From Latilactobacillus sakei subsp. sakei DSM 20017 = JCM 1157 (GTDB taxonomy: Bacteria > Bacillota > Bacilli > Lactobacillales > Lactobacillaceae), in NCBI RefSeq assembly GCF_002370355.1, contig NZ_AP017929.1, positions 1,302,001 through 1,366,000 on the forward strand: a stretch of DNA of 64,000 nucleotides, in the 5' to 3' direction. Below the pieces are notes generated by a model. The model was not told where the DNA came from. It did not search any database and was given only the letters and a program-made list of their open reading frames with translations. Shown here piece after piece: positions 30,474-42,330 of this stretch. Position 1 is the first letter of the stretch; every line of letters starts with the position of its first letter. Both the position numbers and the translations under genes were made by a program.

Positions 30474-30490
30474 AAAGCCACAATTGAATA

Positions 30491-30569
30491 ACGCATCTGG
30501 GGTGCCTAAGAGCTGAGATTATACCCATTGAACCTGATATAGTTAGTACTAGCGCAGGGAAATGTCGTG
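30491..30569 (+). ncRNA. TPP riboswitch (THI element)
   Basis: All conserved parts of the TPP aptamer occur in order: GGGGTGCC, AGCTGAGATTATACCC, GAACCTGATATAGTTAGTACTAGCG and AGGGAAATG. P1 pairs ACGCAT with ATGTCGT. A terminator follows 21 bases later, so the switch likely works on transcription: TPP bound means stop. It controls tenA and thiW. Confidence 0.97.
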
Positions 30570-30590
30570 TCGTTTGTTTATTAAACGTGC

Positions 30591-39151: not shown

Positions 39152-39709
39152 TTATTCAAGAATAATCATATCGTCTGGTGCGGCAAATGGATTTTCTTTG
39201 TTGATGTGGTCAAAGAAAAGAATACCGTTTAAATGATCGATTTCGTGTTGGCAAACAATTGCGGGGTAGTTTTTAAGACGAATCTTATGACTAACACCTT
39301 CAACGTCTTGATAACGTAATGTAATTCTGTCGTGCCGGGGCACATAACCGGGGACTTCGCGATCGACTGATAGGCAACCTTCGCCTTCAGCTAAAGCAGC
39401 GTCTTGAACAGAGTGGCTAATAATCTTAGGATTAATAATCACGTCTTTTAAGATTGGTGCTTCGCCTTCAGGGCCAGGGACTAAAACAGCTGACATCTGT
39501 TTTGAAACATCTACTTGAGGTGCGGCTAAGCCAACACCAGCGCGTAATTGATATTTCGCAGCAATTTCTGGATCTTGGCTATTTTCCAAGAATGTCATCA
39601 TGTCAGCGGCAAGTTGCCGATCTTCGTCAGATAGTGGGAATGAAACAGGTTGTGCAATTTCTCTAAGTGTAGGATTACCCTCGCGGATAATATCTTTCAT
39701 TAATATCAC
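39152..39709 (-). CDS. def: Peptide deformylase
   Basis: Removes the formyl group from nascent proteins. All three motifs are present: [13 protein letters not shown] and QHEIDHLNG with the catalytic Glu and metal-binding His residues. It is 185 aa, the type-2 Gram-positive form. The start GTG at 39709 fits the GGAGG eight bases upstream; the ATG three codons later is too far from it. It is a single gene, and the M-box promoter lies 69 bases away on the other strand. Confidence 0.95.
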
Positions 39710-39777: not shown

Positions 39778-39806
39778 TTGACCCACTTATCGATAACCAG
39801 TAGAAT
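39778..39806 (+). promoter_or_regulatory. Promoter of the M-box transcript
   Basis: TTGACC at 39778-39783, exactly 17 bp, then TAGAAT at 39801-39806. It lies 25 bases before the riboswitch. Confidence 0.8.
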
Positions 39807-39830
39807 GAGTATATAGAGATATCGCTTTTC

Positions 39831-39974
39831 CGTTAGGTGAGGCTCCTATATGAACATACGCTGCTACTCAGAAACATCGAGAGATGCCAATTGAGTCAAC
39901 AGAAACTGCCAATGAAGGCTTTTTCTAACGTAGCTGAACATGGTTTCTACGTCATATAGTGCTAAAACTGAACG
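39831..39974 (+). ncRNA. M-box (ykoK) magnesium riboswitch
   Basis: The conserved M-box sequence can be read through: CGTTAGGTGAGGCTCCTATA at the start, ACGCTGCTACTCAGAAACATCGAGAGATGCC, TGAGTCAACAGAAACTGCC and the closing CTAAAACTGAACG, which pairs with the CGTTAG start as P1. M-boxes sense Mg2+ and reduce expression of Mg2+ transporters. A T-rich stretch that looks like a terminator follows at about 40022. Confidence 0.93.
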
Positions 39975-40028
39975 ATTGGGAACGCCATGATGTTGTGGAT
40001 GACGCTCAATTGTTGTGCGCCTTTTTTT
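39971..40028 (+). terminator. Probable M-box expression-platform terminator
   Basis: AACGATTG at 39971-39978 can pair with CAATTGTT at 40007-40014, overlapping the 3' strand of P1, and a T7 run follows at 40022-40028. The hairpin is not perfectly placed next to the T run, so the exact fold is uncertain. Confidence 0.5.
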
Positions 40029-40078
40029 GTACAACTAAGTGCGACCTCTAAAACTAATTAGAAAGTCTGGTGAGTAAA

Positions 40079-40168
40079 ATGTTGCAAACAGCTGAAGGTC
40101 CGTTAAGTAGTAGCGATAGTGATCATCCGAGGTGGTCTGTCTTTTTACTGCCAGCAGCTTTAGGCTAG
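40079..40168 (+). CDS. Possible 29-aa leader peptide upstream of the ATPase-like gene
   Basis: ATG 40079, with GGTGAG five bases upstream, opens a 29-codon frame ending at TAG 40166-40168. It contains an acidic stretch SSSDSDHP and then a hydrophobic end FLLPAALG. It lies between the M-box and a hairpin (40177-40207, CTTCC / GGAAG) whose 3' arm holds the AAGGAG ribosome binding site of the next gene. Leader peptides with acidic and Pro codons occur before other Mg2+ transporter genes (for example mgtL), so a regulatory role is conceivable. Coding status is uncertain. Confidence 0.35.
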   Translation: MLQTAEGPLSSSDSDHPRWSVFLLPAALG

Positions 40169-40176
40169 CAGTGTTA

Positions 40177-40207
40177 CGACGACTTCCTCAAAAGGGAAGG
40201 AGTGTCG
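40177..40207 (+). promoter_or_regulatory. Hairpin covering the ribosome binding site
   Basis: CTTCC (40183-40187) pairs with GGAAG (40195-40199), and CGAC (40177-40180) with GTCG (40204-40207). AAGGAG (40197-40202), the binding site for the gene at 40214, is within the 3' arm. Confidence 0.5.
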
Positions 40208-40213
40208 AACGCG

Positions 40214-40897
40214 ATGCACAAGAATTTAAAGCAAGAAACAACGTTAAACGCAATCACAAGCAGCGGGATGTTAATGCGTTTGTTGGCAACTCGTCCAAGC
40301 GGGTTAACAACGATTGAAGCTGCAAAGCGGGCATCACTAGTTGCCGATTCAAATCGGATGGCAAGTGTTGTACGCGACGGTTTCCTACGCGAAATTGGTG
40401 TTGATCAAATTGTAGCAGGCGATATTTTAGTATTAGATGCTGCAGAAAAAACACCAGTTGCCGTAGCAACAATCGATAAAGAAATGGCGGTCATCAAAGC
40501 CGGTACAGTTGTTAAAACAGGTACGAGAGGTGTCGTGTTGAACGAAACACTATCACCTAAGGATGATGTCGTTAAGGTTCGCCTAGGGAATGCTTTCCTT
40601 ATGGCAGTGGCAGCACTTGTGTCATTCCTTGCGGTCCTTGCAGTTAATGAATTTGCTTTTGCTGGTGTGACAATCGGCTTAGCAGTTTGTACTGCCGTTA
40701 TGATGATGCGCGTTACAAAATCAGGGCAATTCAAGAACCTACTTGTTTTCGTAAGTATCGGTCAATTACGGATGCGCCTATTAGTTAATCTTCATCGCCT
40801 CATGACTCATCTAAGAGTTGAGCCAGTTTGGACGGATGTTCAACGCTTCCTAGTACATGCTGGGAACGCTGAGATCCCTCAACCGGTCTTGGCATGA
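40214..40897 (+). CDS. Small P-type-ATPase-like membrane protein
   Basis: A 227-aa protein starting at ATG 40214 (AAGGAG upstream; a GTG at 40202 overlaps that site). The N-terminal part resembles a cation-ATPase N-domain (RPSGLTTIEAAKRAS). Then comes a piece like the actuator domain entry, LREIGVDQIVAGDILVLDAAEKTPV, and AGTVVKTGTRGVVL. Two hydrophobic segments follow at about residues 138-158 and 160-178. The phosphorylation motif DKTGT and ATP-binding domain are absent, so it cannot be a full pump. It may be a decayed or condensed relative of MgtA-type ATPases, or a small regulator. Its M-box suggests Mg2+ stress. A terminator follows. Confidence 0.6.
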   Translation: MHKNLKQETTLNAITSSGMLMRLLATRPSGLTTIEAAKRASLVADSNRMASVVRDGFLREIGVDQIVAGDILVLDAAEKTPVAVATIDKEMAVIKAGTVVKTGTRGVVLNETLSPKDDVVKVRLGNAFLMAVAALVSFLAVLAVNEFAFAGVTIGLAVCTAVMMMRVTKSGQFKNLLVFVSIGQLRMRLLVNLHRLMTHLRVEPVWTDVQRFLVHAGNAEIPQPVLA

Positions 40898-40921: not shown

Positions 40922-40964
40922 CAAGCGTTTAGTACAGACAATGGTTTGTACTAGCGCTTTTTTT
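40922..40964 (+). terminator. Terminator of the M-box transcript
   Basis: AAGCG..TTAGTACA / TGTACTAGCGCTT imperfect stem with a T run at its 3' side. Confidence 0.88.

Positions 40965-42330
<1,366 letters not shown>

Follow-up and report, generated by a model that had tools for sequence, protein, structure and literature searches.

What does a magnesium riboswitch control when the coding gene behind it is not a complete transporter? This question is raised by a locus of Latilactobacillus sakei subsp. sakei DSM 20017 that lies within a stretch of 64,000 nucleotides (contig NZ_AP017929.1, positions 1,302,001 to 1,366,000 of the forward strand), the whole of which is referred to here as the window; its numbering is used for all coordinates. 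The original prediction placed an M-box upstream of a shrunken P-type-ATPase-like gene and offered two accounts of that gene, namely, that it is decayed or that it is a small regulator that kept the riboswitch. The reading that we favor, with a probability of roughly 0.55, is that two stacked Mg2+ switches, the M-box and a leader attenuator, drive the expression of a conserved, non-catalytic membrane protein derived from an ATPase.

The M-box (ykoK) magnesium riboswitch aptamer occupies positions 39822-39987 (+), upstream of the gene, as predicted. With 139.2 bits (gathering score 44, E 2.6e-31), the cmscan match to RF00380 spans model positions 1-169 of 169, that is, the full length of this family, whereas the coding gene downstream is not a complete transporter. 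The window copy is the single M-box of the 1.94 Mb genome, and an M-box is present in 6/6 genomes of the window genus (g1). On its 5' side lies a promoter-like site, TTGACC-17-TAGAAT (39778-39806, +); promoter-like matches here do not exceed the shuffle expectation, and the plausibility of this site comes from its position. Behind the aptamer, the alignment reveals a terminator-like hairpin (GACGC..GCGTC in the relatives) followed by a T run (40001-40028, +), which is the predicted expression platform of the M-box; the window copy of the hairpin has one mismatch, and the terminator scan made no call at 40001-40028.

The short gene is located between def (peptide deformylase, 39152-39709, -) and pdhA (pyruvate dehydrogenase E1 alpha, 41221-42330, +), both recognized by sequence; def is a neighbor common to genera g1, g11, g12, g13 and g22, and pdhA to g1, g12 and g13. 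The whole ORF extends over 40202-40897 (+), and the start was placed at the ATG at 40214 because this codon is preceded by a usable Shine-Dalgarno sequence, GGGAAGGAG (40194-40202). The resulting gene (40214-40897, +) encodes the 227 amino acids that were originally reported, including an SGLT..EAAKR motif, a partial actuator domain (residues 47-84), two predicted membrane helices (within residues 125-169), which match the two membrane spans noted before, and a C-terminal tail. The claim that the protein carries pieces of the actuator and N-domains of P-type ATPases holds for the former only. A search with the single sequence against the Pfam actuator family (PF00122) yields a match below the family cut-off (E 0.0024, residues 48-89), and the profile-profile comparison (hhalign) of the alignment of six genus members with full-length M-box ATPases yields a probability of 92% (E 8e-7) over 36 columns; for the short proteins of g13, the corresponding probability against the ATPase actuator domain is 95%. 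The homology to the actuator domain is thus partial, about 36 residues or columns. No piece of the N (nucleotide-binding) or P domain was found in the 227-aa protein, and what had been called an N-domain may be the N-terminal 'SGLT..EA' motif (Cation_ATPase_N region). Neither the DKTGT phosphorylation motif, whose absence had been noted, nor the TGES of the actuator domain occurs in this protein or in any short form. The protein accordingly shares with MgtA/MgtB-like P-type ATPases the N-terminal motif and the first part of the actuator domain but, at 227 aa, lacks the rest of their hallmarks. Searches of the NCBIfam and PDB sequences returned weak matches only, and no other known family. With a pLDDT of 41, a first AlphaFold model, built from six close sequences, was set aside; a second model, whose alignment included ATPases, reached 61. 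The best Foldseek matches of this second model are P-type ATPases, a similarity that is not independent because of the ATPases in the alignment.

The same locus in other genomes allows the history of the short gene to be traced. In all 6 genomes of the window genus, the short ORF is intact behind the M-box between def and pdhA, with 39-96% identity among the proteins, and 18 genomes from three further genera (g11, g12, g13) carry intact short forms of 262-316 aa at the def-pdhA locus. The lengths are characteristic of the genera: 219-227 aa in g1, 262-273 aa in g12, 282-300 aa in g13 and 312 aa in g11. Behind this def-side M-box, g22 has a complete ATPase of 878 aa and genome G203 one of 875 aa, so that full-length and shortened versions of the ATPase are found at one syntenic locus. 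An HMM of the full-length M-box ATPases detects the g13 short proteins with an E-value of 1e-22 and resolves them into the N-terminal domain, the first membrane pair and the actuator domain without the TGES-holding stretch (HMM positions 190-219, which are skipped), and then nothing; the short proteins of g12, g11 and g1 are more diverged (E 2e-5 to 6e-3), and across genera the short forms can be aligned over about 36 residues only. For close pairs, dN is 0.02 with dS of 0.30 and 0.07 with 0.42, and in Lacticaseibacillus (g12) 0.04 with 0.23. Judging by these substitutions, the short gene is kept by selection and is not rotting; it would represent a pump fragment that was maintained after the loss of catalysis. 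Truncation is not peculiar to the window, given that the short form is common to four genera, and the relatives keep it with dN/dS below 1, as had been proposed for checking. From the suggestion of a small regulator that kept the riboswitch, the small form joined to the riboswitch is borne out, and 'regulator' stays putative.

An unlikely explanation of these patterns is that the functional unit is the RNA, namely, the M-box together with the leader ORF described below, and that the short ATPase-like ORF is carried along as a passenger that erodes slowly. Three genera (g14, g16, g21) keep the M-box and leader ORF without any ATPase, the short proteins diverge quickly and vary from genus to genus in their length and membrane segments, and the helix covering the ribosome-binding site of the short gene (3:4, below) could be a relic of the full gene. 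A passenger, however, is not easily reconciled with ORFs that are intact in all 24 genomes sampled from four genera with dN/dS of about 0.07-0.3, with near-invariant C-terminal tails, or with the conserved Shine-Dalgarno sequence of the short gene and its own intrinsic terminator (40929-40964, +).

Between the M-box and the short gene, the window contains a leader ORF of 29 codons, MLQTAEGPLSSSDSDHPRWSVFLLPAALG (40079-40168, +), for which an alternative in-frame GTG start at 40070 is possible. This ORF, and the hairpins over its start and over the start of the short gene, were missing from the original prediction. Leader ORFs of 26-34 codons with a Shine-Dalgarno sequence are present in 68/68 leader-type M-box regions from nine genera, a count that is partly by construction because the leader ORFs were picked as ORFs; they are absent where 30-120 nt separate the M-box from the start of a full ATPase (g5, g9, g10, g54). 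Order- and class-wide, a leader ORF was found in 94 of 155 M-box regions versus 66 of 1084 control windows (6%). At codons 2-20, leaders have 4.8 acidic and proline residues and control ORFs 3.4 (p<2e-4, one sequence per genus), with leader examples such as EDEVEEPDS, EDDPAEPES, DDHPEPH, MEPVP and PGPADPDDRP; in the window leader, this motif is modest (AEGP, DSDHP). M-boxes of other Lactobacillales families and of a few other Bacilli (loci L171-L190, L141-L170, L205, L207, L215-L217) are also followed by leader ORFs with acidic/proline-rich starts, mostly before full-length genes.

Could the leader be an untranslated, structured RNA expression platform that is open by chance? In the window genus, synonymous divergence (pS) is 0.12 in the leader versus 0.61 in the short gene, and strong helices run across the entire leader ORF, both of which would suit such an RNA; the synonymous sites of the leader are constrained, and therefore part of its conservation is at the RNA level. 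Nevertheless, substitutions bear a frame-specific coding signature (z +4.3 in frame 0, and -3.3 and -4.0 in frames +1 and +2, for codon alignments made in frame 0 from sequences that are related and not independent), a Shine-Dalgarno sequence precedes the leader start in every genus, the indels among leader ORFs are codon-sized, and the acidic/proline composition is common to unrelated leaders. With this evidence, chance openness is improbable.

The leader and the start of the short gene can form three mutually exclusive helices, all on the + strand. Helix 1:2 (H1) pairs region 1, which includes the leader Shine-Dalgarno sequence and start codon (5' arm, 40061-40080), with distal codons of the same ORF (3' arm, 40142-40162, part of region 2). 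The distal leader segment of region 2 (codons 17-24, 40128-40150) can instead pair with region 3, the anti-Shine-Dalgarno arm immediately 3' of the leader stop codon (40169-40190). Helix 3:4 (H2, 40177-40207) hides the Shine-Dalgarno sequence of the short gene and, in g11 and g12, the main-gene start codon as well as the ribosome-binding site. Synonymous-codon versions form a weaker helix 1:2 than the natural sequences of nine genera (mean z -1.7 to -4.0), and several pair types occur at single positions of this helix between genera. Helix 2:3 has a predicted energy of -19.4 kcal/mol in the window, where none of 300 synonymous-codon versions is as strong; the duplex is predicted in 27/27 sequences tested, with p<0.05 in 6/6 sequences of g1, and is weak against the synonymous null in Lacticaseibacillus (4/13 at p<0.05). 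Helix 3:4 has a z of -2.9 against dinucleotide shuffles in the window and mostly -1.3 to -4.8 across genera (outlier -0.1), recurring in five genera; these energy scores and the recurrence constitute its support because RNAalifold detected no double-sided covariation for it in g12. The locus thus displays what characterizes leaders of the mgtQ/mgtL type: an ORF with a Shine-Dalgarno sequence, an acidic/proline start across genera, and exclusive helices in silico.

The opposite end of the short gene calls for separate consideration. The C-terminal tail, HAGNAEIPQPVLA (40856-40894, +), is near-invariant in the genus, synonymous sites included, and the tail is the most conserved part of the protein in g1 and in g12 (FRYNQDPVSW). 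For the last 10-15 codons in two genera, codon identity among identical residues is 0.80 versus 0.49, and 0.63 versus 0.42. As the tail is conserved at synonymous sites, these values hint that it may have a further role, in the RNA or in the nascent chain. One may go further and regard the conserved 3' end as the regulatory signal, a nascent-chain or RNA element, and the rest of the ORF as a spacer; the position of the conserved codons directly upstream of the terminator fits this possibility, which we nonetheless deem quite improbable, given that the actuator-domain segment is likewise conserved under purifying selection and that, barring terminator read-through, no downstream gene shares the transcript.

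Least probable is the decay option, in which the gene is a pseudogene of a magnesium-transporting ATPase still joined to its riboswitch: the resemblance by descent to the N-terminal part of the full-length ATPases that occupy this locus elsewhere and the truly broken second M-box ATPase of sister genome G003 would fit it, but it was rejected, being contradicted by conservation, dN/dS well below 1, and ORFs intact in the 6 genus members and 18 further genomes, that is, in every genome of four genera. The second M-box precedes an MgtA-like ATPase in two genus members, intact in G002 (L051, 917 aa) and interrupted in G003 (L050); this copy is absent from the window genome.

For the Mg2+ response, the ribosome drop-off and the direction of control under the favored reading, two stacked switches before a non-catalytic membrane protein, we infer three steps. 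First, by the established M-box mechanism, RNA polymerase would pass the M-box terminator at low Mg2+. Second, in an architecture recognized by comparison, the leader start would be hidden in helix 1:2 and the main ribosome-binding site in helix 3:4, and a ribosome on the leader ORF would open 1:2. If, in low Mg2+, this ribosome paused or dropped off at the acidic/proline codons, as in the case of MgtL and MgtQ, region 2 would pair with region 3, the resulting helix 2:3 would prevent 3:4, and the main gene would be translated; fast read-through of the leader would allow 3:4 to form and leave the main gene silent. Third, the product, which is conserved, would be what is left of an MgtA-type ATPase, anchored in the membrane and non-catalytic, and its putative function would most likely be that of a small regulatory partner in Mg2+ homeostasis.

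The closest known parallel is mgtQ, the uORF of Salmonella mgtB, for which the topology of 1:2 plus 3:4 versus 2:3 was demonstrated by mutation (PMC8092293). Both systems combine a short ORF with acidic codons, a strong Shine-Dalgarno sequence and the same alternative stems (PMC8092293). Unlike mgtQ, which has 8 codons and controls the translation of an Mg2+ transporter gene, the leaders described here have 26-34 codons, an M-box upstream and Gram-positive hosts, the start codon itself lies inside stem 1:2, the peptides have no recognizable homology, and what the leaders would control is in many cases a shortened remnant of an ATPase. The mgtL leader of mgtA in E. coli and Salmonella, with its EPDP motif and low-Mg2+ ribosome drop-off, likewise places an acidic/proline peptide upstream of an MgtA-type ATPase (PMC11282234); mgtL acts on Rho-dependent transcription termination, whereas the predicted target here is translation initiation, with transcription left to the M-box. 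Asp-Pro stalls are documented in B. subtilis (PMC11381351). In Mycobacterium tuberculosis, an M-box followed by a conserved small uORF, rv1805A, has already been published, with a translational M-box platform involving Rho and a peptide that is the regulated product and is reported to be mycobacteria-specific (PMC12810186). Because this combination is known, we lower the claim of novelty (PMC12810186); the present locus, with an intrinsic terminator and a proposed leader attenuator, is a different arrangement. For leader ORFs behind Firmicutes M-boxes, we found no report in the open-access literature, to which the search was confined.

Enterobacteria are known to sense Mg2+ through destabilization of the ribosome. 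The locus allows a direct test of whether Gram-positive bacteria use this principle, in organisms that are food-grade and amenable to standard genetics, and, if the favored reading is true, two unrelated Mg2+ sensors, an aptamer and a ribosome, are stacked on one mRNA. Tentatively, and with odds somewhat below even, we extend this scheme: many M-box mRNAs of Lactobacillales and some of other Bacilli may contain a second Mg2+ sensor, an acidic/proline leader ORF at which ribosome destabilization gates translation, and Lactobacillaceae may have redeployed the double switch, four genera for ATPase proteins that are shortened and non-catalytic, and three more for a structured RNA of about 550 nt.

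The latter RNA is located in g14 (loci including L060-L064), g16 (L065, L066, L068, L069, L084, L085, L101, L105-L107, L112, L114, L115) and g21 (including L070-L072), where no gene comes after the M-box and leader ORF; the sequence there, about 550 nt long, is conserved, structured and apparently non-coding. This stretch begins about 190 nt and ends about 750 nt past the M-box, at a terminator beside a convergent glutamate-symporter-like gene; it has no Rfam match at E<=5. Compensatory pairs account for 35/105, 46/76 and 39/89 of the predicted pairs. A large non-coding RNA is suggested by these pairs, by conserved blocks and by a folding energy that is lower on the sense strand. In one g54 genome (L088, 1805-2845), the M-box is followed by a truncated ATPase of 346 aa that is full-length in relatives, possibly a recent truncation. 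The window also contains a TPP riboswitch at 30488-30577 (64.5 bits).
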